In this document: positions 1,966-15,107 of the stretch, one piece after another | Layout: every line of letters starts with the position of its first letter | Numbering within the stretch: the first letter of the stretch is position 1 | DNA from: Anaeromyxobacter diazotrophicus | Lineage (GTDB): Bacteria; Myxococcota; Myxococcia; Myxococcales; Anaeromyxobacteraceae | Direction of reading: 5' to 3' | DNA: 64,000 nucleotides | Assembly: GCF_013340205.1 (NCBI RefSeq) | Contig: NZ_BJTG01000008.1 | Span: forward strand, 124,001 to 188,000 | The notes under the pieces: model-generated | The model's database searches: none | What the model was told of the DNA's origin: nothing | What the model saw: only the letters and a program-made list of their open reading frames with translations | Made by a program: the position numbers and the translations under genes

Positions 1966-4900
1966 TCACTGCCCTGCGGGGCCGACGCGCGCGGGGGCGA
2001 GGGCGTGGGGCAGGGGCTCGGCGGTGGAGGCGGCGGGGCGGCGGGTGCGGCGGCCGCGGAAGCGCTGGTGGACCTCGAAGGCGAAGCCGTCCAGCACCTC
2101 CGGGTCGATCGGGTCGCCGTTCAAGGACAAGGTGAGGGAGAGCAGGCCCTCCCGCTCCGCCACGTGGTGGAACTGCGCCTCGGCGATCTTGTTCGGCATG
2201 CACTCGAGCGGGCCCACCGAGACCACCGCGTCGATCTCGCCCCGGCGCCAGGCGTGGACCGGGACGCCGATGGTGAGCACCGACTCCACCTCCAGCTCCT
2301 CGCGCAGGTACGGCGCCGCCGCGGCCAGCGCGGCCTTCACCGGCACGTGCTCCGGCCAGCCCAGCACCCCCGCCCCCGCCCGGTGGCACAGGCCCAGGAT
2401 GCGGTTCCGGAGCGCGGTCTCGAGCCGGTCGGCCGGGCCGCGGTTGGCGCCGCTCTTCGCGGCGATGAAGTCCGAGTACTGGATGAACTCGGACACCGGC
2501 TCCAGCCGGGCGCGGATGCCGCGCCGCTCCAGCGCCTCGGAGACGTAGTCGTTCGCGAAGGGGTCGGAGCGGACGTAGATCTCGCCCACCACCAGCACGC
2601 TCGGCACCTCCTTCCGCGACTTCACCGCGGCCAGCTCCTCCGCCGCGCGCCGGAGCAGCTCCGGGATGCCGTAGACGCGGCCCGTCGCCACCTCCAGGAG
2701 CACCCGCGCCGCCGACAGGTCCCCCGCCGCCGCGCCCTCGATGCGCGCCCACAGCGCCTCCGACCAGCGCCGGTGCAGCTCGGCCGCCGCGCCGTCGCGC
2801 GTCTCCACCGGGCGCACGTCGTGGAGCGCCTCCTCCAGCACCCCCGCCGCGCAGACGCCGGCGAAGATGATGGCCTTGAAGCCTGGCGGCATGCCGTGGA
2901 AGTAGTCGCCGAAGGTGGGCGACCACAGGTCCACCCGCTCGCCGTGGCCCAGCCGGTCGAGCACGAGCTGGTGCAGCTGCTTGTAGGCGCCGAAGCGGCA
3001 GGGGCCGTCCGAGCCGGGCATGAGGAAGGTGAACCGCTCGCGCTCCTCGCCCGGGCGCTCGATGCGCTCGAGCAGGCTGCCCAGGGTGAGGGTGAGCGGC
3101 AGGCACTCCTTGCCCGAGGTGTGCCGCCGGCCGAGGCGCAGGGTCTCGCGGGTCGGCCGGGCCAGGGTCTCGGCGCGGGCGCCCAGCCCGCGCGCCGCCG
3201 CCGCCACCGCCTCCGCCTCCGGCCCCATCCGCGGGACCAGCATGCGCGCGCCCGCCCGCGCCAGCGCCAGCAGCGAGCGCGGCGGGACGGTGAGCCGGCC
3301 CGCGTCGCGCGGAGGGGTCGCGCGCGGGGCGCGCTGGTCCTCGCGCACGCAGTGCAGGAACGCCTCGACCCGGGTCTTCGTGCCCGCGTCGCCCGCGTGC
3401 CCGTCGGTCTCGATGATGGCGAAGGGGCGCCCCTCCATGAGCCAGGCGTAGGCGTGCACCGTGAAGCTGTCCGGGCCGCAGGAGTAGTTGGAGCAGAAGA
3501 TGGAGTAGAGGCCTGGCTCCCGGCGCAGGTGCCAGGCGGCGCGCAGGATGCGCTGCCCGTAGCCCCAGAAGACGTCCTCGAACACCGGCGCCTCGTCCGG
3601 CACCGGGTAGCAGTCGACCGGGATGGCGATCGCGCCCTGCTCGCGCAGGATGGAGGGCACGTGCGAGTTGAGGACGTCGTTGTGGATGGTGTAGCTGCGG
3701 CCCAGCACCACCACCGGGGTCACGCCCTCGGCGCGGCAGAAGGCGAGCGCGCGCGCGCCGATGTCGAGCAGCGCCGCCTCGAACTGCTCCTGCTCGATCC
3801 GCGCCGCCCGCCACGCCGCCCGCCACGCGCCCTCGCGCGTCACGCCCAGCGCCTCGGCCAGGGCGCGGCACCCCTCCAGGAACCGCTCCGAGTCGAGGAA
3901 GCCCGGGCCCATGTCCACCACCGGCGAGACGACGCGCGGCGCGCGCGCCCCGAGGTCCCAGCGCAGCATGTCCGGCGCGCCCTGCACGATGGGGCACACC
4001 GCCGAGACCCGCTCCTGGGCGTGCGCGCGCGGGATCTCGCGCAGCATCGGCAGGAAGAGGAAGTCGGGCCGGGCGTCGGCCATCTCCGAGACGAGCCCGT
4101 GGTACTGCTGCATCGGCGCGCAGAACGGGACGTTCGCCTCCTCGATGCCGCGCCGGAGCGCGCCGCGACCGGCGCCGCGCGCCACCCGCACGTCGAGGCC
4201 GAGCGCGTGCACGAAGGTGGCGAAGAACGGGAAGAGCCCCTTCAGCTGGAACTCGTCCGTCATCGCCACCACCGGCCGCCCGCGGCGGACGCTCGCGCGC
4301 GCCGCCACCGCCTCCACCAGCGCCTCGCGCTCGCGGAAGGGGTCGGGGGCCAGGTCGGGGAGCTTCTTGCGGCGGGTGCCCTGGTCCCACAGCGAGCAGC
4401 CGCCGCCCCAGGTGAAGCGCGCCTGCGCGCCGGCGACGACGGTGGTGAGCCGGTCGATGCGGCACTTGTTGCCGGCGCCGCCGCAGCCCTGCGTCGAGCC
4501 GCACACGAACTCGTCCTTGCGCTCCACCCGCGCCGCGAGGAAGCGGCGCAGGTCGAGCGCCGGCGCGCCCGCCAGCGGCAGCTCGTCGAGCGCGAGGAGC
4601 GCGATGCCCACCGCCCCCATGAGCCCCGGCTTGGGCGGGACGATCACCTCCGCCCCGGTCTGCCGCGCCACCGCCGCCGCCAGCGCGTCGGAGGCGAACG
4701 GCATGCCCTGGCAGAAGATCACCTCGCCCACGGAGCGGCTGCCCTTCACGCGGTTCAGGTAGTTCGCCACCACCGAGTCGTAGATGCCGGCCACGATGCG
4801 GTCGCGCGCCACCCCCGAGGCGAGCGCCTCGTCGATGATCTCGGCCATGAACACCGAGCAGTGCTGGCCGAGCGCGACGCCCCCCTTCGCCGCCAGCGCC

Positions 4901-6297
4901 TCCTCGCCGAGCTGCGCGACGCTCTCGATGCCCTGGAATCGCTTGCCCTGCTCCTCGATGAAGGAGCCGGTCCCGGCGCTGCACGCCTCGTTCATGGCGG
5001 CGTCGACCACCCGCCCCTCGCTGAGCCGGATGTACTTCGCGTCCTGCCCGCCGATCTCGAAGATGGTGTCGACCCGCGGGTCGAGCGCCAGCGCGCCGGT
5101 GGCGTGGGCGGCGATCTCGTTGAGGACGTGGACCGCCTCGCGGCCGTACACGGTGGCGAGCAGCGAGCCCACGATCTCGCGCCCGGAGCCGGTGGCGCCG
5201 AAGCCGCGCACCCGGTGCAGCGCCGCCGGCCCGTCGAGGAAGAGGCGCACCAGCTCCTGCGCCGCCGCCACCGGCGCGCCGTTCGTGCGCAGGTAGCCCT
5301 CCCACAGCGGCGCGCGGGTGGCGGCGTCGAGCGCCACCGCCTTCGAGCCGGTGGACCCGATGTCGAAGCCGAGCACCACGTGCCGGACGCCCTCCACCTC
5401 GACCACCGGCGAGGCCGGGAGCCGCTTCACCCGCGCCCGCGACGCCGAGAGCGCCGGCAGCTTCTCGAGCGTGGTCTCGAGCGGCGGGAGGATGAGCTCG
5501 GAGAGCGGCGGCACCCGCGTCCCCGGGTGCTCGGCCGCCACCAGCGCGCAGCCGAGCGCCTCGAGGTAGAGCCCGTCCTCGGGATCGCCGGCGACGAGCT
5601 CCATCCCGTGCCGCTCGAGGAAGGCGCGGAAGTGCTCCCGGACCCGCCGCGCGCGCGCCACCCCGCCCGCCAGCCAGACCCGCGGCGGCGAGAGGCTCGG
5701 CTTGAGCAGCACCTCGACGTTCTCGCAGATGGCGTCGAGCAGCCCCGCCAGGATGCGGTCCTTGCCCTCGCCCTTGTTGGCGAGGTGGGTCATGTCGGTC
5801 TTGAGGATGACCGGGCAGCGGCCGGAGAGCGGCGCCGGCTCCGCCACCCCCGCCGCCAGCTCGGCGGCCTCCGCCACGCCGAGGTCGAAGCGCTCCACGA
5901 GCTGGCGCAGGAAGTTGCCGGTGCCCTGCGCGCAGCGCGAGTTCTCGCGGAAGACCTGCTGGCCGCCGCCGCGCAGCTCGAGCACGGAGAAGCCGTGGCC
6001 GCCGATCGAGACCAGGGTGGCCGGCGCGTCGCCGTGCAGGTGCCGGTGGGCGCAGGCGACGGCCTGCTTCACCGGCACGCGCGAGAGCTGCACCTGGCGC
6101 CCGAGCCGCCCGGTCACCGCCGCCCCGCCGACCTCCTCCCACGACCAGCCGGAGAGGACCTCCAGCAGCCGCGGCCCGGGCTCCTTGTGGTGCTCGACGA
6201 GCGCGCGGCGCGCCACGCGGCAGCCGCCCTCGTCGCGGACCAGCTCCACGACCTTGAGCGTCTCCGCGCCCAGGTCGATGCCGACGAAGCGAGTCAT
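1966..6297 (-). CDS. Tandem BadF/HgdC-type activase fused to DUF2229 and 2-hydroxyacyl-CoA dehydratase-like domains
   Basis: 1443 aa. Two ASKHA ATPase domains of the BadF/BadG/BcrA/BcrD type lie in tandem: GIDLGAETLK at residues 6-15 and GFDIGSTGSKA at 310-320. Each keeps the two cysteines that hold the activase [4Fe-4S] cluster: C122 in CAQGTG and C161; C439 in CSAGTG and C480. The 39-residue spacing in domain 1 equals that of the well-studied HgdC activase. A further Cys group follows at C599, C605, C612 and C634. The rest (from about 675) looks like DUF2229 plus a 2-hydroxyglutaryl-CoA dehydratase-like region. HgdC-type activases drive ATP-dependent one-electron reduction of a dehydratase or benzoyl-CoA reductase; the substrate of these large fusions is not established. 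The start ATG at 6297 gives GIDLG at the normal position. The gene appears monocistronic. Confidence 0.85.
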   Translation of the reverse strand: MTRFVGIDLGAETLKVVELVRDEGGCRVARRALVEHHKEPGPRLLEVLSGWSWEEVGGAAVTGRLGRQVQLSRVPVKQAVACAHRHLHGDAPATLVSIGGHGFSVLELRGGGQQVFRENSRCAQGTGNFLRQLVERFDLGVAEAAELAAGVAEPAPLSGRCPVILKTDMTHLANKGEGKDRILAGLLDAICENVEVLLKPSLSPPRVWLAGGVARARRVREHFRAFLERHGMELVAGDPEDGLYLEALGCALVAAEHPGTRVPPLSELILPPLETTLEKLPALSASRARVKRLPASPVVEVEGVRHVVLGFDIGSTGSKAVALDAATRAPLWEGYLRTNGAPVAAAQELVRLFLDGPAALHRVRGFGATGSGREIVGSLLATVYGREAVHVLNEIAAHATGALALDPRVDTIFEIGGQDAKYIRLSEGRVVDAAMNEACSAGTGSFIEEQGKRFQGIESVAQLGEEALAAKGGVALGQHCSVFMAEIIDEALASGVARDRIVAGIYDSVVANYLNRVKGSRSVGEVIFCQGMPFASDALAAAVARQTGAEVIVPPKPGLMGAVGIALLALDELPLAGAPALDLRRFLAARVERKDEFVCGSTQGCGGAGNKCRIDRLTTVVAGAQARFTWGGGCSLWDQGTRRKKLPDLAPDPFREREALVEAVAARASVRRGRPVVAMTDEFQLKGLFPFFATFVHALGLDVRVARGAGRGALRRGIEEANVPFCAPMQQYHGLVSEMADARPDFLFLPMLREIPRAHAQERVSAVCPIVQGAPDMLRWDLGARAPRVVSPVVDMGPGFLDSERFLEGCRALAEALGVTREGAWRAAWRAARIEQEQFEAALLDIGARALAFCRAEGVTPVVVLGRSYTIHNDVLNSHVPSILREQGAIAIPVDCYPVPDEAPVFEDVFWGYGQRILRAAWHLRREPGLYSIFCSNYSCGPDSFTVHAYAWLMEGRPFAIIETDGHAGDAGTKTRVEAFLHCVREDQRAPRATPPRDAGRLTVPPRSLLALARAGARMLVPRMGPEAEAVAAAARGLGARAETLARPTRETLRLGRRHTSGKECLPLTLTLGSLLERIERPGEERERFTFLMPGSDGPCRFGAYKQLHQLVLDRLGHGERVDLWSPTFGDYFHGMPPGFKAIIFAGVCAAGVLEEALHDVRPVETRDGAAAELHRRWSEALWARIEGAAAGDLSAARVLLEVATGRVYGIPELLRRAAEELAAVKSRKEVPSVLVVGEIYVRSDPFANDYVSEALERRGIRARLEPVSEFIQYSDFIAAKSGANRGPADRLETALRNRILGLCHRAGAGVLGWPEHVPVKAALAAAAPYLREELEVESVLTIGVPVHAWRRGEIDAVVSVGPLECMPNKIAEAQFHHVAEREGLLSLTLSLNGDPIDPEVLDGFAFEVHQRFRGRRTRRPAASTAEPLPHALAPARVGPAGQ

Positions 6298-6398: not shown

Positions 6399-6806
6399 TC
6401 ACCGGCAGTAGCGGCCCACCACCTCGAACAGCTCGTCGAGGTCGAGCGGCTTCTCCAGGTGCGCCGCGACGCCGAGCGCCGCGATCCGCTCCTCGAGGCC
6501 GGCCGCCGCCGAGACGATCACCACCGGGATCCGCGCCAGCTCCGGATCGCTGAGCTGCTGCTGGCGGAACTCGGCCCCGTCCATCACCGGCATGAAGAGG
6601 TCGAGCAGGATGAGCGCCGGCCGAAGCTCGCGCGCGCGGGCGAGGCCGTCGGCCCCGTTGCGCGCCGTGTTCACCTCGTAGCCCTCGCTCTCCAGGATCT
6701 CCTGGAGCGTCTCGCGGATGTCGCGGTCGTCGTCGACGACGAGGACGTGACAGGTCGAGGGGGTGACGCGCGGGCCGCTGGAGAGCGGCGTGGCGGCGGA
6801 CATCAT
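6399..6806 (-). CDS. Single-domain response regulator (CheY-like receiver)
   Basis: 135 aa, only a receiver domain after a 19-residue lead. The acidic pair is D25/D26, the phospho-acceptor D69 (in LILLDLFMP), the switch residue S99 (in VVIVSA) and the lysine K119 (in LEKP). There is no output domain, so it acts through protein contacts or as a phosphorelay intermediate. The first of two adjacent ATGs (6806) is used because GGGAG lies eight bases upstream. It is divergent from the electron-conduit operon with a 228-bp gap, so it may share control with it; no kinase is adjacent. Confidence 0.9.
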   Translation of the reverse strand: MMSAATPLSSGPRVTPSTCHVLVVDDDRDIRETLQEILESEGYEVNTARNGADGLARARELRPALILLDLFMPVMDGAEFRQQQLSDPELARIPVVIVSAAAGLEERIAALGVAAHLEKPLDLDELFEVVGRYCR

Positions 6807-7034: not shown

Positions 7035-9299
7035 ATGGATCTCGGCACCGCCTCCATCGTCGCCACCTCGATCGGCGTCGCCGCGACCTTCGCGGCCGGC
7101 ATGGTGGGCCGGCGCGCGCTGCGGGCGCGGGCCGACGCGCGGGCGCTGGCGGAGCTCACCGCGCGCCAGCGCGACCTGCCGCGCTCGCTGCACCCGGTCA
7201 TCGACCCGGACATCTGCATCGGCAGCCTCTCCTGCCTGAAGAGCTGCCCCGAGGGCGACATCCTCGGCATCGTCGGCGGCGCCGCCCACCTCGTCCACGC
7301 CGACCACTGCGTCGGCCACGGGCGCTGCGCCGCCGAGTGCCCGGTGGGGGCCATCCAGCTCGTCTTCGGCACCGCGCGGCGCGGCGTGGACCTGCCGGAG
7401 GTGGACGCCGCGTTCGAGTCCTCCCGCCCCGGCGTCCACGTCGTGGGCGAGCTGGGCGGCATGGGCCTCATCAAGAACGCCATCCGGCAGGGGCTCGAGT
7501 GCGCGGAGTACCTCGCGGAGGCGCTGGCGCGCCGCCCCGGCCCGGGCGGCGAGGGGGTCGTGGACGTCGCCATCGTCGGCGCTGGCCCGGCCGGCCTCGC
7601 CACCGCGCTCGGCCTCCGGCACGCCGGCCTCGACTTCCGCGTCCTGGAGCAGTCCACCCTCGGCGGCGCGGTGGCGCACTACCCGCGGCAGAAGGTGGTG
7701 ATGAGCGAGACGGTCGAGCTGCCGTTCTACGGGCGGTTCGGGAAGCGCCGCATCTCCAAGGAGGAGCTGCTCCACAGCTTCGAGAAGATGGCGGCGAAGG
7801 GGCAGCTCCGCGTCGAGGAGGGCGTCAAGGTGGTGGGCCTCGAAGGCGCCGACGGCGCGTTCGAGGTGCTGACCGCCGGGCACGGCCGGGTGCGCGCCCG
7901 CAAGGTCGTGCTGGCGGTCGGCCGGCGCGGCACGCCCCGCCGCCTCGGCGTGCCGGGGGAGGAGCTCGAGAAGGTGGTGTACGGGCTCACCGACCCCGAG
8001 CAGTACCGCGGCGCCAAGGTGCTGGTGGTGGGCGGCGGCGACGCGGCGCTGGAGGCGGCGCTGGCGCTCGCCGGCGAGCCCGGCACCGAGGTGACGCTCT
8101 CCTACCGCGGCGCGGCGCTCGCCCGCTGCCGCGAGGCGAACCGCCGAGAGGTGGAGGCGGCAGCCGCAGCGGGCCGGCTCGCGCTCCTCCTCGCGTCCGA
8201 GGTGCGGCGCGTCGCGCCGCGCGAGGTGGTCCTCTCCGTCGGAGGGGCCGAGCAGCGGCTCCCCAACGACCACGTGGTGGTGAACGTCGGCGGCGAGCTG
8301 CCGCTCGAGCTGCTCCAGCAGTGCGGGGTGCAGATGCGCCGCTACTTCGGCGAGGCGCCCGGCGCGCACCGGCACGGCCCGGCGGGCGCGCGCGAGCGGC
8401 TCCTCGCGGGGGCGCTGGAGAAGGACCGCGCGCAGCGCCGCTTCGAGCACCGGCTGGCGCTCGCCTTCGCCGCCGCGGGGGCGCTCCTCCTCGCGTTCCT
8501 GGCCTGGAAGGGCCGCCACTACTACCCGCTCGCCGCGCCCGACCGGCGCCTCTCCCCGCTGCACCGCTCGATGCGCTCGGCCGGGCCGTGGGGCCACGGG
8601 GTCGGCATCGGCGCGACCCTGTTCATGCTGTCGAACTTCCTCTACGCGGCGCGCAAGCGCTTCGCCTTCATGACGCGCTGGGGGCACATCCGCTCCTGGC
8701 TGCACTTCCACGTCTTCGTCGGCTTCATGAGCCCGCTCGTGATCGCCTTCCACGCGGCGTTCCAGTCGAAGAACCTGCTCGCCACCGGCACCGCCTCGTC
8801 GCTGGCGGTGGTGGTCCTGACGGGCATCGTCGGCCGGTACATCTACGGGCTCGTGCCCTCGTCCGGCGGCAAGGCGCTCGAGCTGGAGGAGCTGCAGGGC
8901 GCCTTCGTCCGGCTCCGGGACGAGATCGAGCCGCTCATGGGGCGCGCCCGCGATCCCGAGCGCATCCGGCGCCTCTTCGACCGCGCCACCGTCCCGGCCG
9001 CCCGCGGCTCGCTGCTGCTCCTCCTCGTCGAGCTGCCCTTCCTCTCCCTCGCCACCCGCGCCGACCTCCTGCGCGTGCGGCGCCTCTTCCCCGCCCGCGA
9101 GACCTACCAGGTGGTCCACGACGCCTACCTGCGGCTCCGGCGGCTCACGGTCCAGATCGGCTTCTACCGCTCGCTGAAGCGGCTCCTCGGCGGCTGGCGC
9201 GTCTTCCACGCCTCGCTGGCGGTGTTCCTGGTGCTCGCCATCGCCGCCCACATCGGCCTCTCCCTCTACCTCGGCTACGGCCTCGGGCTCCTCCGCTGA
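7035..9299 (+). CDS. Inner-membrane oxidoreductase: ferredoxin-like Fe-S, YpdA/TrxB-like FAD-NAD(P), cytochrome b-like membrane domain
   Basis: 754 aa. One N-terminal membrane segment (about 7-25). Then a ferredoxin-like pair of sites (C61, C67, C71; C92, C98, C102), an FAD Rossmann motif GAGPAG (182-187) and a second nucleotide-binding motif VVGGGDAALEA near residue 335. The C-terminal part has five hydrophobic segments (about 475-495, 520-540, 555-576, 585-605, 723-748) with histidines (HFH near 556, FH near 573, FH near 724, H near 736) placed as possible haem b ligands. It probably oxidises NAD(P)H or ferredoxin and passes electrons into or across the membrane. The second Cys of each Fe-S motif is replaced (S64, H95). 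The stop overlaps the next start (TGATG). The ATG is chosen because GAGG precedes it and the N-terminal membrane segment follows. Confidence 0.8.
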   Translation: MDLGTASIVATSIGVAATFAAGMVGRRALRARADARALAELTARQRDLPRSLHPVIDPDICIGSLSCLKSCPEGDILGIVGGAAHLVHADHCVGHGRCAAECPVGAIQLVFGTARRGVDLPEVDAAFESSRPGVHVVGELGGMGLIKNAIRQGLECAEYLAEALARRPGPGGEGVVDVAIVGAGPAGLATALGLRHAGLDFRVLEQSTLGGAVAHYPRQKVVMSETVELPFYGRFGKRRISKEELLHSFEKMAAKGQLRVEEGVKVVGLEGADGAFEVLTAGHGRVRARKVVLAVGRRGTPRRLGVPGEELEKVVYGLTDPEQYRGAKVLVVGGGDAALEAALALAGEPGTEVTLSYRGAALARCREANRREVEAAAAAGRLALLLASEVRRVAPREVVLSVGGAEQRLPNDHVVVNVGGELPLELLQQCGVQMRRYFGEAPGAHRHGPAGARERLLAGALEKDRAQRRFEHRLALAFAAAGALLLAFLAWKGRHYYPLAAPDRRLSPLHRSMRSAGPWGHGVGIGATLFMLSNFLYAARKRFAFMTRWGHIRSWLHFHVFVGFMSPLVIAFHAAFQSKNLLATGTASSLAVVVLTGIVGRYIYGLVPSSGGKALELEELQGAFVRLRDEIEPLMGRARDPERIRRLFDRATVPAARGSLLLLLVELPFLSLATRADLLRVRRLFPARETYQVVHDAYLRLRRLTVQIGFYRSLKRLLGGWRVFHASLAVFLVLAIAAHIGLSLYLGYGLGLLR

Positions 9300-11122
9300 T
9301 GCGCTCCCTCCCGCTCGCCCTCGCCGCGCTCCTCCTCGCCGCGCCGGCCGCGCGGGCCGCCGACGTCTTCTCCCCCGGCGACCTCTCGCGCGCCCACGCC
9401 GCGCTGTCGGGCCTCCAGAACTGCACCAAGTGCCACCCCCGCGGCGAGCAGCTCTCGCAGGCGCACTGCCTCGAGTGCCACCGCGAGCTGGCGCCCCGGG
9501 TGCAGGCCGGGCAGGGTTTCCACGGCCGGCTCGCGCCCAAGGAGCGCGACTGCTGGGCCTGCCACCACGAGCACCAGGGCCGGGACGCGGCGCTGGTCGA
9601 GTGGGGCCCGGGCGGCGCGCGGCGGTTCGATCACGCCCGCACGGGCGCGCAGCTCGGGGGCAAGCACCAGGCGGTCGCGTGCGACCGGTGCCACGATCCC
9701 CGCCTGGTGCAGGACTCCGCCGTGAGGAAGCTCCTCGCCGAGCAGCCGCGCCGCAAGACCTACCTCGGCGCGCCCGCCCTCACCGCCTGCGCCAGCTGCC
9801 ACTTCGACGAGCACCGCGGCCAGCTCGGCGCCGACTGCGCGCGCTGCCACCGCGACGGCGGCTGGAAGCCCGCCCCGGGCTTCGAGCACGCCCGCACCAG
9901 CTACCCGCTCACCGGGAAGCACGCCCGCGTCGCCTGCGCGAAGTGCCACGCGCCCGCCGCCGCCCCCGCCGCCGAGCCGGGAGCGCTCACCGCCCCGGTC
10001 CACCCCGACGCCTTCGCGCGCTACCGCCCGCTCGCGCACGCGAGCTGCCTCGACTGCCACAAGGACGCGCACGAGGGGCGCTTCGGCCAGGACTGCGCCC
10101 GGTGCCACACCACCGAGGACTGGCGCCGCATCGTCTCCGGCGCGGGCGCCGAGCGCGCCTTCCACCAGAAGACGCGCTACCCGCTCGAGGGCGCGCACCA
10201 GACCGTCGCGTGCGTGGCTTGCCACGGGCCGTTCCGCGGCGAGCCGGCCCGCTTCAAGCCGCTCGCCTTCGGCGCCTGCACCGACTGCCACGCCGACGCG
10301 CACGCCGGGCAGCTGGCGCGCCAGGGGCCGGCGGCCGGCCGCTGCGACCGGTGCCACGAGGTGCGCGGCTTCCAGCCGGTCAAGTTCGGCCTGGAGGAGC
10401 ACGAGAAGACGCGCTACCCGCTCGCCGGCGCGCACCGGGTGGTGGCCTGCGCCGCCTGCCACCCGCAGGAGCCGCGGCTCGCCGACCGGCTGCCGGAGGC
10501 GACCCGGGCCGAGCTGGCGCGCCGCGGCCGCCCGGCGCGCGTCTCCCTGGCCGTGTACGCGCTGGCGGGCGACCTCGCCCGCTGCGAGACCTGCCACGCC
10601 GACCCGCACCAGGGGCAGCTCGTGCGCCCGCAGGGGTGCGCCGCCTGCCACGCGGTGGACTCCTTCCACCGGGTGCGGTTCGACCACCAGCGGGAGAGCC
10701 GCTTCGCGCTCGCCGGGAAGCACGCCTCCGCGCCCTGCGCCGCCTGCCACCGGCCGGAGCCCGGGCCGTCCGGCGCGGCGGTCCGCTACAAGCCCCTCGC
10801 GGTCGCCTGCGCCGGCTGCCACCAGGACGCCCACCTCGGCCAGCTCGCGCCGAAGGAGGGCGGGCCGACCGACTGCGCCCGCTGCCACGGCGCCGACGAC
10901 TGGAAGAAGACGCGCTTCCAGCACCAGCCGCCCTTCACCGACTACGCGCTCACCGGGAAGCACCTGAAGGTCGCCTGCGCCAAGTGCCACCCCGCGGTGC
11001 AGGTCGCGCCGGGGACGCTCGCGCGGCGCTACCGCGGGCTGCCGCGCGCCTGCGAGGCGTGCCACGCCGACTTCCACCAGGGCGCCTTCCGCGGCTTCGA
11101 GCCGACGAGGTTCAGCCGATGA
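9299..11122 (+). CDS. Periplasmic multihaem cytochrome c, 20 CxxCH motifs
   Basis: 607 aa with a signal peptide (about residues 1-21, ending ARAA). I count 20 CxxCH haem-binding motifs and no other cysteine pattern. The protein is modular: a block with Y-x-L-x-G-K/A-H followed by CxxCH recurs (TSYPLTGKH, TRYPLEGAH, TRYPLAGAH, SRFALAGKH, TDYALTGKH), usually after a D-x-H-x-G-x-x-G segment, suggesting repeated duplication of a 2-4 haem unit. It belongs broadly to the cytochrome c3-like/doubled CXXCH group. As the second gene of the operon it is the likely periplasmic wire between the inner-membrane oxidoreductase and the outer-membrane porin. The start overlaps the previous stop by one base; the end overlaps the next gene as ATGA. 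Confidence 0.9.
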   Translation: MRSLPLALAALLLAAPAARAADVFSPGDLSRAHAALSGLQNCTKCHPRGEQLSQAHCLECHRELAPRVQAGQGFHGRLAPKERDCWACHHEHQGRDAALVEWGPGGARRFDHARTGAQLGGKHQAVACDRCHDPRLVQDSAVRKLLAEQPRRKTYLGAPALTACASCHFDEHRGQLGADCARCHRDGGWKPAPGFEHARTSYPLTGKHARVACAKCHAPAAAPAAEPGALTAPVHPDAFARYRPLAHASCLDCHKDAHEGRFGQDCARCHTTEDWRRIVSGAGAERAFHQKTRYPLEGAHQTVACVACHGPFRGEPARFKPLAFGACTDCHADAHAGQLARQGPAAGRCDRCHEVRGFQPVKFGLEEHEKTRYPLAGAHRVVACAACHPQEPRLADRLPEATRAELARRGRPARVSLAVYALAGDLARCETCHADPHQGQLVRPQGCAACHAVDSFHRVRFDHQRESRFALAGKHASAPCAACHRPEPGPSGAAVRYKPLAVACAGCHQDAHLGQLAPKEGGPTDCARCHGADDWKKTRFQHQPPFTDYALTGKHLKVACAKCHPAVQVAPGTLARRYRGLPRACEACHADFHQGAFRGFEPTRFSR

Positions 11123-11964
11123 CTCCGCTCCTCCTCGCGCTGGCGCTGGCCGCGGCGCCCGACCTGCGCCCGCGCCCGCCCCACCCGGACGACACCCACT
11201 GCGAGAAGTGCCACACCACCGACGGCTGGCAGGAGGTGGCCTTCGCGCACGAGCGGACCGGCTTCCCGCTCGCCGGCGCGCACCGGCGCGCGAGCTGCAA
11301 GGCGTGCCACGCCGAGAGCTTCACCCGCGCGCTGGGCCGCGACTGCGGGTCGTGCCACCGCGACGTGCACCAGGGCCGCCTCGGCGCGCGCTGCGCCGGC
11401 TGCCACGAGGAGACCGACTGGAAGACGCGCTTCGACGCCGACGCGCACCGGCGCGGGAACTTCCCGCTGGTGGGGCGCCACGCCTTCATCCCCTGCCAGG
11501 AGTGCCACGGCGACCGGCGCGACCGCGGCTTCAGCCGGCCCACGCCGCAGTGCCTCGCCTGCCACCAGCGCGACTACGACCGGACCGCCGTCACCGCCAT
11601 CGACCACCGCGCGGCCGGCTTCCCCACCACCTGCCAGCAGTGCCACCAGCCCTGGCGCTTCGCGGGCGCCTTCTTCGCGCAGCACGAGGCGTGCTTCCCC
11701 ATCGCCTCCGGCCGCCACGCCGGGATCCGGTGCCTCGACTGCCACACCAGCTTCACCGGCCCGATCAACCTCAACGGTCAGTGCAACACGGGGACCGCGC
11801 ACTGCCAGAAGTGCCACGACTGCGGCCGCCACCCGCAGGTGGCCGGCTTCGGCTGCTTCGACGCGAAGTGCTACCAGTGCCACCCGGGCGGCAACGCCGG
11901 GACGAGCGCGCTGCGCGGGGGCGGGAGCGCCGCCCTGCGCCGCGGCGGGAGGATCGGACCATGA
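11119..11964 (+). CDS. Exported multihaem cytochrome c, 10 CxxCH motifs
   Basis: 281 aa. A short hydrophobic start (MTPLLLALALAAAP) acts as signal peptide. Ten CxxCH motifs run from about residue 28 to 255, with the same TGFPLAGAH-x-CKACH style of module as the 20-haem protein, so the two are probably related by duplication. The last part has extra cysteines (a CDC-type segment near CQKCHDCGRH). It probably works inside or next to the porin as the through-membrane cytochrome, or in the periplasm. It starts inside the previous stop codon (ATGA) and ends the same way, so its translation is tied to its neighbours. Confidence 0.88.
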   Translation: MTPLLLALALAAAPDLRPRPPHPDDTHCEKCHTTDGWQEVAFAHERTGFPLAGAHRRASCKACHAESFTRALGRDCGSCHRDVHQGRLGARCAGCHEETDWKTRFDADAHRRGNFPLVGRHAFIPCQECHGDRRDRGFSRPTPQCLACHQRDYDRTAVTAIDHRAAGFPTTCQQCHQPWRFAGAFFAQHEACFPIASGRHAGIRCLDCHTSFTGPINLNGQCNTGTAHCQKCHDCGRHPQVAGFGCFDAKCYQCHPGGNAGTSALRGGGSAALRRGGRIGP

Positions 11965-12947
11965 GCGCGCGCCTCTCCTTCCCGCTCGCGCTCGGCGCCC
12001 TGGGCGCCGGCACCGCGCTGGCGCTCGCCGGCGCCTGCGGCCTCCCTGGCGGCTCGTCCGGCGCGACCTTCTCCCACGCCTCCAAGTTCGTCGTGACGGG
12101 CTCGCACCAGGCGCTCGCCTGCGCCGACTGCCACGACCCGGCGAAGCCCTCCTTCGCGCTGGCGGACGGCGGCGTCGACTGCCTGCACTGCCACGCGCAG
12201 GCGGACGTGACGCCGATGCACGCCGGCGTGGGGGGCTTCGGCTACGACGACGCCTCCTGCATCGGCTGCCACAAGGACGGGAAGACGCCCCAGTTCGACC
12301 ACACCTTCTTCCCCATCGCCGCCGGCGCGCCCCACCAGAACCTCGCCTGCGCCGACTGCCACGGCGCGACGCGGGCGGTGGCGGACCTGCAGTGCATCAC
12401 CTGCCACACCCACGACCCCACCACCACCAACGCGGCCCACACCGGCGTGACCGGCTACAGCTACGACTCGCCCTCCTGCTACGGCTGTCACAAGGACGGG
12501 CGCGGCGGCCTGCCGTCGAACCACGACGCCGAGCTCTTCCCGGTGACCGGGACCCCGCACGCGGCGATCGCCTGCTCGCAGTGCCACGGCGCGACCAAGG
12601 CGCTCGCGGACCTCCAGTGCCTCGGCTGCCACGCGAAGACGGACATGGCGACGACGCACGCGGCGGTGCCCGGCTCGGCCACCGGCCGCCTCAGCAACAA
12701 GACCTTCGCGAACTACCAGTACGTACTCGCCGCCTGCATGGCCTGCCACGCCGACGGCGGCTACCACCTCTCGCAGCACCCGTCGGCGAGCGGCACCTCG
12801 ATGGTGTCGGATCACCACCGCCCCTTCTGCCTCGCCTGCCATCAGACGATGCGCCCGGCGAGCGGCGTGAAGCCGTGGGGGCAGGACTTCAAGACCTTCA
12901 CCTGCCTCGACTGCCACACCAACAACAGCGGCGGGGGTGGAGGGTGA
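11961..12947 (+). CDS. Multihaem cytochrome c, 11 CxxCH motifs, possible outer-surface lipoprotein
   Basis: 328 aa. The N-terminus is a signal sequence with a possible lipobox (ALAGAC, Cys near residue 27), so it may be lipid-anchored. Eleven CxxCH motifs follow. An internal duplication is plain: CADCHGATRAVADLQCITCH and CSQCHGATKALADLQCLGCH each sit in a block that also carries a C-x-x-C-H-K-D-G motif. The C-terminus ends in five glycines. Lipid-anchored decahaem-type cytochromes are the usual cell-surface component of porin-cytochrome conduits; that role is inferred from position. GTGA overlap with the porin gene. Confidence 0.87.
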   Translation: MSARLSFPLALGALGAGTALALAGACGLPGGSSGATFSHASKFVVTGSHQALACADCHDPAKPSFALADGGVDCLHCHAQADVTPMHAGVGGFGYDDASCIGCHKDGKTPQFDHTFFPIAAGAPHQNLACADCHGATRAVADLQCITCHTHDPTTTNAAHTGVTGYSYDSPSCYGCHKDGRGGLPSNHDAELFPVTGTPHAAIACSQCHGATKALADLQCLGCHAKTDMATTHAAVPGSATGRLSNKTFANYQYVLAACMACHADGGYHLSQHPSASGTSMVSDHHRPFCLACHQTMRPASGVKPWGQDFKTFTCLDCHTNNSGGGGG

Positions 12948-14698
12948 CGGTCCGCGCGCGCTGGCTGGCCCTCCTCCTCGCCGCCGCGGCGCTCGCGGCC
13001 GGCGCGCCCGCCCGCGCCCAGGAGGCCGCGGACGCGCCGCCGCCCCGGCGCGCGGCCAAGGCGCCGGCGCGGCCGTTTCCCGCGCTCGCGCAGCCGAAGG
13101 CGGCCGGCCCGGTGGCGGTGAAGCCGGTGAAGCTGCACGCGCGGGCGGCCGGCCTCGGGACCGTGCTCTCCGTGACCGCGCGCCGCGCCTACCTCGACGC
13201 CGGCGCGAAGGACGGCCTCGCCCCGGGCCGCGAGCTGCGGCTCGAGCGCAAGGGTCGCCCGGCCGGCCGCTGCACCGTCGAGGCCGTCTCGGACCGCGGC
13301 GCCACCTGCGCCGGGCAGGACCTGCGCGCCGGCGACACCTTCGCGCTCGCCGCGCCGCCCCCGGCCGCCGCCGTCTCGCGCACGCAGGCGGCGCCTCCGC
13401 CCCCGCTGGCGCCGGCCGAGGTGTCCCGCCGCCGCGCCGCGCTCGAGGCCGCTCCGGTCGCCCGGGTGGAGTACGTGGCGCCGCCGCGGCTCGAGACGGC
13501 GCGGGGCCCGCAGCGGGTCGAGGTGAGCTTCCTCCACCTCAGCTCCTTCAGCTCGGGCGGTCCGGGCCTGTCGCAGGACCGGCTGGAGGCGCGCGTGTAC
13601 GGGGCGGAGGTCGGCGCCGGCCTGCGCCTCTTCCTCGACGCGAGCGGCGTCTACCGCGCCACCGCCTCGTCGCCGTCCGAGCGCTTCCGCCCGGGCGACG
13701 CGGCCTACCTGGAGGTGCGCGAGCTGCAGCTCACCACCCGCGAGCCGGACCGTGCGTACGCCTTGTCGGTGGGGCGGATCCTGCCCTGGGCCGCCCCCGG
13801 CTCGACCGTCTTCGACGGCGCGCAGCTCGGCTGGCGCGGGCGCCTCGGGGAGCTGGGCGTGTTCGGCGGGGCGGTGCCGGACGCCGTCACCACCGGCCTC
13901 GGCACGAGCCGCGCCACCGCCGGCGCGTACGGCGCCCTCGAGCACGCGACCGACGCGGTGCTCGTGCGCGCCGAGGGGCGCGTCGCCATGGTGCGCTCGC
14001 CCGAGCTCGGCACGCGCCTCGAGACCGAGGCGCTCGGCCACGGCTGGCTGTGGCGCGCGCTCGACCTCTCGGGGCAGGCGCGGCTCGGCTTCGGCGGCGA
14101 CCGCAACGCCCCCGCAGCGCTCGACGCGGCGCGGGTGGACCTGTCGGGCCGGCTGGCCGAGCCGCTCTGGCTCACCGCCAGCTTCCGGTACGTCGGCCTC
14201 TTCACCCCGGACGCCGCCTCGCCGGCGCTCTTCCCCGGCCCGGCGCGGCACGCCGACCTCACCGCCTCGTGGGACGCCTCGCGCCACCTCACCCTGCGCG
14301 CCATCGCCGGCTACGCCCGCGACCTCTCGAGCGGGCTCGACCGCAAGTACGCCGGCCCGGAGCTGGCGCTGCCGCACCTCTTCGGCCGGTACGGGTCCGC
14401 CTCGGCCGGCTGGCTGGAGGAGCGCGGCTGGGCGGGCGGGCGGAGCGTCTGGGTGCAGGGCGAGGGCGACGCCCTCCTCGGCGCGCGCCTGCTCCTGCGC
14501 GCGTCCTTGTACATGGACGCGCGCCCGCCGCCGCTGTCCGACACCACCACCGTCGGCTTCGTCGCGAGCGCCACCCGGGACCTCGCCGCGTGGCTGCGCC
14601 TGCGGCTCTCCGCCATGGGGCGGCTCGGCGTCGCCACCAGCGCGACCGACACGCTGGGCGGGATCTCGGTCCTGGCCGGGCTCGACGGCCTCTACTGA
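12944..14698 (+). CDS. Outer-membrane beta-barrel porin of the multihaem conduit
   Basis: 584 aa. Signal peptide to about residue 25 (ending ARA-Q), an Ala/Pro-rich linker, and a small SH3-like beta domain (about 65-145, LGTVLSVTARRAYLDAGAKD onward). Then a long region (about 185-584) of alternating amphipathic strands rich in Tyr, Leu and Gly that ends LAGLDGLY with a terminal aromatic, as in outer-membrane barrels. No cysteines suitable for haem. It shares the layout of porin-cytochrome conduit proteins (MtrB/Omb-type) but I cannot assign it to one family by eye. The GTG start overlaps the previous TGA and has GGTGGAGG just before it. Last gene of the operon; a hairpin follows at 14715. Confidence 0.75.
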   Translation: MTVRARWLALLLAAAALAAGAPARAQEAADAPPPRRAAKAPARPFPALAQPKAAGPVAVKPVKLHARAAGLGTVLSVTARRAYLDAGAKDGLAPGRELRLERKGRPAGRCTVEAVSDRGATCAGQDLRAGDTFALAAPPPAAAVSRTQAAPPPPLAPAEVSRRRAALEAAPVARVEYVAPPRLETARGPQRVEVSFLHLSSFSSGGPGLSQDRLEARVYGAEVGAGLRLFLDASGVYRATASSPSERFRPGDAAYLEVRELQLTTREPDRAYALSVGRILPWAAPGSTVFDGAQLGWRGRLGELGVFGGAVPDAVTTGLGTSRATAGAYGALEHATDAVLVRAEGRVAMVRSPELGTRLETEALGHGWLWRALDLSGQARLGFGGDRNAPAALDAARVDLSGRLAEPLWLTASFRYVGLFTPDAASPALFPGPARHADLTASWDASRHLTLRAIAGYARDLSSGLDRKYAGPELALPHLFGRYGSASAGWLEERGWAGGRSVWVQGEGDALLGARLLLRASLYMDARPPPLSDTTTVGFVASATRDLAAWLRLRLSAMGRLGVATSATDTLGGISVLAGLDGLY

Positions 14699-14759: not shown

Positions 14760-15107
14760 TCACTTGCGCTTGCCGCGGTCGCCCGGCTCGAGCTCGCCCG
14801 AGGCCTCCTCCTTCTCCTCCTCCTCGGCGATGGGTCCCGGCTTCTCGAGCTTGCGGTCGAGCTGCCGGGCGAAGGCGGGGTCGTTGCGGCGGATCCACTC
14901 CAGGATCATCGCCGCGTGCTCCTTCTCCTCGTCGCGGTTGTGCTCGAGGATGCTCTTCAGCTCCGCGTCCGCGATGACGTCGATGCGCTGCTGGTACCAG
15001 TCGACCGCCTCCAGCTCCTCCTGCAGCGAGGTGTACGCGCGGTGCAGATCGCGGGTCTTGGGCGAGAGGCTTTCGAACGGCTCGTGGTAGCCGGCGGAGT
15101 TGGCCAT
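14760..15107 (-). CDS. Encapsulated ferritin-like protein (EncFtn)
   Basis: 115 aa, very close in pattern to the encapsulated ferritin of Rhodospirillum rubrum: EELEAVDWYQQR and LEHNRDEEKEHAAM. The iron-site residues E31, E61 and H64, entry-site E30 and E33, and W37 line up at a constant offset of one residue. EncFtn is a half-ferritin that forms a ring of dimers, oxidises Fe(II) and normally works inside an encapsulin nanocompartment. The C-terminus is a 20-residue Glu/Lys-rich tail (EEEEKEE, then GDRGKRK), which may or may not act as the targeting peptide. No encapsulin shell gene is next to it. ATG at 15107 has GGGAG seven bases upstream. Confidence 0.9.
   Translation of the reverse strand: MANSAGYHEPFESLSPKTRDLHRAYTSLQEELEAVDWYQQRIDVIADAELKSILEHNRDEEKEHAAMILEWIRRNDPAFARQLDRKLEKPGPIAEEEEKEEASGELEPGDRGKRK

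Follow-up and report, generated by a model that had tools for sequence, protein, structure and literature searches.

A PCC3-variant operon of Anaeromyxobacter diazotrophicus in which the predicted inner-membrane cytochrome b is fused to a putative iron-sulfur flavoprotein

When a porin-cytochrome conduit carries its own inner-membrane protein, from where does it draw its electrons, or to where does it deliver them? The question is raised by five genes (g1 to g5) in a 64,000-nucleotide stretch of the Anaeromyxobacter diazotrophicus genome (contig NZ_BJTG01000008.1, positions 124,001 to 188,000; hereafter the window, to whose first letter all coordinates refer). A first-pass annotation, made from the sequence alone, had proposed that these genes form an overlapping operon with 41 haems, an inner-membrane entry point of its own with NAD(P)H-type chemistry, and an outer-membrane barrel as the exit. 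The operon is a variant of PCC3, a known family of conduits, and not an isolated novelty. What is new beside the published PCC3 accounts is the N-terminal part of g1, an iron-sulfur (Fe-S) and YpdA/thioredoxin reductase (TrxR)-like flavoprotein that is fused here and encoded by a separate gene elsewhere. The operon probably specifies a trans-envelope conduit of the PCC3 kind in which one polypeptide joins an inner-membrane cytochrome b (the inner-membrane protein, IMP) to the membrane-anchored Fe-S flavoprotein that is its redox partner. The five genes are as follows.

7035-9299, plus strand: g1, 754 amino acids; predicted inner-membrane oxidoreductase with an N-terminal membrane anchor, an Fe-S domain, a TrxR/YpdA-like flavoprotein and a C-terminal PCC3-type di-haem b membrane domain
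9299-11122, plus strand: g2, 607 amino acids; cytochrome c with 20 CxxCH motifs and a Sec-type signal, presumed periplasmic wire
11119-11964, plus strand: g3, 281 amino acids; cytochrome c with 10 CxxCH motifs
11961-12947, plus strand: g4, 328 amino acids; cytochrome c with 11 CxxCH motifs and the lipobox LAGAC, candidate cell-surface lipoprotein, variable among relatives
12944-14698, plus strand: g5, GTG start, 584 amino acids; predicted outer-membrane barrel

Successive genes in the span 7035-14698, all on the plus strand, overlap by 1, 4, 4 and 4 bp, and the 41 haem motifs counted in the first-pass annotation are those of g2, g3 and g4 together. Shuffling the residues of g2 and g3 yielded a mean of about 0.2 CxxCH motifs and a maximum of 2. 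The third-position GC content of g1, g2, g3 and g5 (0.98-0.99) indicates that these are genuine coding frames. In a Pfam scan g1 matched Fer4 and Pyr_redox (pyridine-nucleotide oxidoreductase), g2-g4 matched cytochrome domains of class III/c7, and g5 matched no family. Full-length g1 is present in one copy only in its own genome, where paralogue and IMP profile searches found neither a second full g1 nor a second IMP.

Judged by its sequence, the C-terminal third of g1 is the IMP of the published PCC3 conduits. As set out in the PCC3 passages of He et al. 2017 (PMC5566968), a PCC3 cluster comprises a porin, an extracellular cytochrome, a periplasmic cytochrome of about 21 haems and an IMP; the latter has about 300 residues, five transmembrane helices, two WX3HX13H motifs and the motif SGXXG, and has been proposed to use quinone. 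The corresponding domain of g1 carries both WX3HX13H motifs, with TGIVG replacing SGXXG, as a fused domain:

8442-9284, plus strand: g1 residues 470-750, predicted five-transmembrane di-haem cytochrome b domain (PCC3 IMP) with W555-x3-H559-x13-H573, TGIVG and W721-x3-H725-x13-H739 (from motifs, profile and AlphaFold2)

The pairs H559-x13-H573 and H725-x13-H739 are invariant across 33 homologues, which supports the label "cytochrome b-like" that g1 had been given. A profile built solely from stand-alone IMPs, found beside reductases, matched the C-terminus of g1 at E = 8.8e-36, its sole match in the genome; compared with PDB sequences, the same profile returned coiled-coil noise only. The operon has an inner-membrane entry point of its own, as the annotation had proposed. 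The further claim of a distinct conduit architecture is not borne out in that form: a self-supplied inner-membrane protein has already been published as a feature of PCC3 (PMC5566968), and what is new beside that account is the flavin/Fe-S reductase. The PCC3 passages in the running text of PMC5566968, PMC10734462, PMC8788666, PMC12442390 and PMC13386937 make no mention of this reductase.

The second PCC3 component is also present. On sequence homology, g2 is the cytochrome of about 21 haems: it has 20 haems and aligns at 30% over 578 residues, nearly its full length, with the 21-haem PCC3 cytochrome of Amphritea atlantica, a genome given as a PCC3 example in the passages of He et al. (PMC5566968), and its signal sequence predicts a periplasmic location. 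In five other loci g2 and g3 are joined, in that order, as one protein of 27-30 haems, which suggests that the two form a continuous wire. The place of g4 is taken in other loci by 8-14-haem proteins or by nothing, and some loci have cytochromes of 27-29 haems or more beside the block. Set against the extracellular multihaem cytochrome of PCC3, g4 has 11 haems and a lipobox and is a candidate for a surface location; a lipobox also occurs in 17 of 23 other candidate terminal cytochromes. Membership of the MtrA/MtrC-type families was considered for g2, g3 and g4 and dropped, as the scores lie far under the cut-offs (TIGR03508, MtrA/DmsE: 46.3 bits for g2 and 16.9 for g3 against 192.2; TIGR03507, OmcA/MtrC: 22.1 bits for g4 against 209.3).

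The genes are conserved as a block in Myxococcota. A g1 match at E <= 1e-20 was found in 58 of 195 genomes, some of these matches being to single domains only, and genes at the loci were called by a GC-frame script with approximate starts. There are 42 loci with a near-full-length g1; 38 continue into a homologue of g2 with about 20 haems, 36 additionally hold the 10-haem part corresponding to g3, and in 29 of these a barrel can also be recognised by comparison with g5; some of the other loci run off contig ends. The order g1-g2-g3-g5 is kept across the phylum, with g4 as the variable member. Single open frames joining g1 and g2 in two loci (L064 and L090) were not used, since the g1 alignment stops early and a frameshift is the more likely cause. 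The genome of locus L041 has a second g1-like gene (L069, G047:C26), which lies near a 14-haem cytochrome, has no adjoining g2 homologue and is without H521.

The last gene had been described as a barrel, and the AlphaFold2 model of g5 agrees, with 22 predicted barrel strands over residues 191-583, an N-terminal beta domain over residues 71-134 and a mean predicted local distance difference test (pLDDT) score of 78. Profile comparison links g5 with barrels that unfused operons encode in KSB1 and similar genomes (98.8%) and with a shorter barrel group (94.7%). The structure matches of g5 are generic porins and TonB-type barrels. This would suit an arrangement with no extracellular conduit at all, in which the cytochromes store or distribute periplasmic electrons beside an ordinary porin that holds no cytochrome, as would the fact that no MtrA or MtrC family cut-off was attained. 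However, barrel and cytochromes are kept together in 29 of the 42 Myxococcota loci, and lipoprotein-type cytochromes occur at the place of g4 or nearby. A purely periplasmic role is therefore very improbable.

With the membrane domain and g2 assigned to a known family, the question moves to the N-terminal part of g1, which comprises the following features.

7041-7106, plus strand: g1 residues 3-24, hydrophobic N-terminal helix (from hydropathy; AlphaFold2 helix 3-43)
7191-7358, plus strand: g1 residues 53-108, two-motif ferredoxin domain with CxxSxxCxxxCP and CxxHxxCxxxCP
7365-7550, plus strand: g1 residues 111-172, segment similar to the TrxR C-terminal flavin adenine dinucleotide (FAD)-contact motif but placed ahead of the Rossmann domain, candidate circular permutation
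7557-8345, plus strand: g1 residues 175-437, predicted FAD- and NAD(P)-binding domain, closest to the bacillithiol disulfide reductase YpdA

The six cysteines of both ferredoxin motifs, H95 and the key glycines of the flavin and nucleotide motifs are invariant across the 33 homologues. The second Fe-S motif reads C-x2-H-x2-C-x3-CP in 76 of 76 relatives in which it is detectable (78 examined); at the equivalent position of the first motif nearly all fused forms have Ser and most proteobacterial forms have Cys. One fused homologue (L091) has a canonical CxxCxxC first motif, in contrast to the others. The flavin domain is nearest to YpdA and thioredoxin reductases both by sequence and by predicted fold (Z about 21, root-mean-square deviation 6.7 A over 268 residues), in line with the NAD(P)H-type chemistry that had been proposed for g1, although its score against TIGR04018 (YpdA) falls below membership (145.7 bits against a cut-off of 339.9). 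The fold searches with whole g1 were dominated by matches to this domain and thus did not probe the membrane part.

The flavin domain may in addition be circularly permuted, because the segment FESSRPGVHVVGELGGMG ahead of the Rossmann domain resembles, in weak matches, the C-terminal FAD-contact motif of TrxR-type enzymes. When g1 is re-ordered to undo the putative permutation, its alignments extend deeper into the C-terminus of TrxR (for example, 1-314 with chain residues 17-311 of 3f8p), whereas alignments in the natural order stop near 265. The total scores of the re-ordered form are no higher than those of the natural order, with fewer sequences used, and the evidence for permutation is suggestive.

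In relatives without the fusion, the reductase has a gene of its own. When the g1 alignment was searched against a single genome of each species, it gave at least 586 stretches, at least 577 of them encoding relatives, and the best 80 were kept. Among these best 80, the separate reductase has about 435 residues and commonly lies near an IMP, an 18-24-haem cytochrome and a second cytochrome, often with a barrel; an IMP is present in 41 of 56 split loci, and a cytochrome of at least 15 haems likewise in 41. The split locus of Amphritea atlantica (L132) has cytochromes with 63 and 21 haems, and in two unfused operons (L114 and L131) the reductase, IMP and cytochromes follow the same order as in the fused operon. 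In a reductase tree of 58 rows, which leaves out KSB1-type rows, a branch with full support sets the fused forms apart from all others, in keeping with one fusion event. One fused row (L112) is labelled Pseudomonadota, and the fusion is therefore mainly, not strictly, a Myxococcota trait.

The linkage of reductase and IMP was followed further by running the IMP profile and then a reductase profile on the same 369 gammaproteobacterial genomes. An IMP was found at E <= 1e-20 in 49 of these genomes, 41 of which also have the reductase. With a stronger cut of E < 1e-45, picked post hoc when the other seven hits proved weak (about 1e-21 to 4e-31), the reductase accompanies the IMP in 41 of 42 genomes; conversely, 41 of the 44 genomes with a reductase at E <= 1e-60 have a strong IMP. 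Fisher's test on the restricted table gives p of about 1e-49 with genomes taken as independent, though relatives are not. The two genes are also close, the reductase lying within 2 kb of 37 of 47 strong IMP copies and, in 36 of those 37, on the opposite strand (divergently transcribed). In ten split loci no IMP and no large cytochrome lies near the reductase. A search of eight of the ten genomes gave an IMP match in six; in L170 and L172 this match falls in a neighbour of the reductase whose length of about 550 residues is above the size filter used for loci. This neighbour in L170 and L172 (Hyphomicrobiaceae) carries three CxxCH motifs and is perhaps an IMP-cytochrome fusion.

These associations bear on the quinone-linked model of He et al., in which the IMP exchanges electrons with menaquinone; the reductase would then feed quinone from NAD(P)H or be accessory. 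The model is published, and the di-haem four-His pattern of the IMP is common to quinone-reactive cytochromes b (PMC5566968). However, the Fe-S flavoprotein is fused to the IMP in Myxococcota and stands nearly always alongside it in Gammaproteobacteria, as for a direct partner, and the two His pairs also fit the quinone-free domains of ferric reductases and NADPH oxidases (FRD/NOX): PF01794 is matched by 5 of 34 IMPs, with a best E of 2.8e-5. A quinone link is accordingly judged unlikely, and the fusion and genetic linkage suggest that the donor or acceptor is cytoplasmic and of the NAD(P)H type, in place of the quinone coupling of the published PCC3 model.

In a PCC3-kind conduit with such a direct partner, the most likely path would start in the cytoplasm with a carrier of two electrons, probably NAD(P)H, that reduces the FAD of g1, from which electrons would pass in single steps through two Fe-S clusters, one with the conserved His at a ligand position, to two stacked b haems spanning the inner membrane. 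The b haems would hand electrons to the 20-haem periplasmic wire g2, which would pass them to the 10-haem g3, sited at the barrel g5 or within it, and this in turn to the 11-haem lipoprotein g4 at the surface. Outward flow along this path would need no quinone, would be thermodynamically downhill and would be helped by the membrane potential, and for these reasons the natural role would be that of a fast, non-conserving outlet by which reductant is passed to acceptors such as Fe(III) and humics.

The same components could in principle run in reverse, taking up electrons from Fe(II), minerals or partner cells so that the flavoprotein makes NAD(P)H. Uptake of this kind is uphill for most extracellular donors and works against the membrane potential. 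In its favour, the passages on PCC3 in PMC5566968 and PMC10734462 state that PCC3 was found in organisms that oxidise Fe(II) and that conduits of this broad kind can carry electrons in either direction. The published expression data on iron, as given in such passages, are mixed. The inner-membrane gene of one PCC3 copy is up in iron-oxidising cells of Sideroxydans CL21 (PMC12442390), whereas expression of both PCC3 clusters of S. lithotrophicus ES-1 is lowered on Fe(II) (PMC8788666), a pattern that suits some function other than the uptake of electrons from Fe(II). Among the relatives of the window, moreover, is Anaeromyxobacter, whose members are described as reducers of Fe(III) (PMC4245776). 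Uptake as the native function is thus regarded as improbable.

Several points weigh against a direct, nucleotide-linked conduit of the PCC3 kind, the post hoc choice of the strong IMP cut among them. As the IMP profile was derived from IMPs that lie beside reductases, a reductase-free IMP subfamily could be under-counted. Profile homology between g5 and the canonical proteobacterial PCC3 porins is not detectable (hhalign 1.2%). The AlphaFold2 model of g1 has a pLDDT of 73.7 and a predicted template modelling score of 0.46, and its Fe-S region is poor. The use of NAD(P)H by g1 is read from fold and conserved motifs, and another partner could occupy the pocket.

A wider proposal is offered tentatively, at somewhat less than even confidence: that PCC3-type conduits across many phyla work without quinone, as trans-envelope machines for NAD(P)H (or NAD(P)+). 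At their core would be a flavoprotein not recognised before, in which a TrxR fold, probably circularly permuted, is joined to an Fe-S domain whose cluster is His-ligated; this flavoprotein would be either docked on a di-haem cytochrome b or fused to it. The PCC3 IMP was previously without an assigned function, quinone use having been proposed, and the fused reductase suggests the missing cytoplasmic-side partner of the family; the operon thereby suggests a source or destination for PCC3 electrons. If NAD(P)H and the cell surface do exchange electrons directly, then for the bacteria that carry such conduits both the energy balance and the part played in iron and manganese cycling would need rethinking.

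The surroundings of the operon include further genes, all on the minus strand.

14760-15107, minus strand: EncFtn-like (encapsulated ferritin) gene, directly downstream of the operon and convergent with it, possible iron-handling neighbour
6399-6806, minus strand: stand-alone response regulator receiver domain, divergent from g1, candidate regulator
1966-6297, minus strand: 1443-residue protein with BadF/BcrA ATPase and DUF2229 domains

Many PF09698 motifs occur elsewhere in the same genome (G000:C4:87000-131000), in a cluster of very long open frames of 1202, 1431 and 2176 residues.

Among known systems, PCC3 as described in the passages of PMC5566968 is the closest, sharing a homologous IMP with two WX3HX13H motifs, a homologous periplasmic cytochrome of about 21 haems, a further multihaem cytochrome and, by prediction, a barrel. 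The present operon differs in the fusion of the IMP to an Fe-S flavoprotein, in an extra 10-haem cytochrome after the 20-haem one, in a barrel of another or very distant sequence family, and in a candidate surface cytochrome with only 11 haems. The MtrCAB and Geobacter Pcc conduits likewise combine a barrel with multihaem cytochromes; here, by contrast, g2 and g3 score far under the DmsE/MtrA cut-off and g4 under that of OmcA/MtrC, and the operon has its own inner-membrane module. The pcc clusters already published for Anaeromyxobacter, which also pair a barrel with multihaem cytochromes, are two-gene, 12-14-haem clusters (Shi et al. 2014, PMC4245776), from which this operon differs in gene number and haem counts. 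FRD/NOX enzymes resemble g1 in joining an NAD(P)H-type flavoprotein to a membrane domain with two H-x13-H pairs (a likeness of pattern, haem binding in g1 being predicted), but their FNR-type FAD/NADPH domain is C-terminal, whereas the flavin domain of g1 is TrxR/YpdA-like and N-terminal, following the Fe-S motifs. YpdA and thioredoxin reductase, finally, share the predicted fold of the FAD and NAD(P) domains of g1, which differs from them in having no CxxC, in its added Fe-S and membrane domains, and in its possible permutation.

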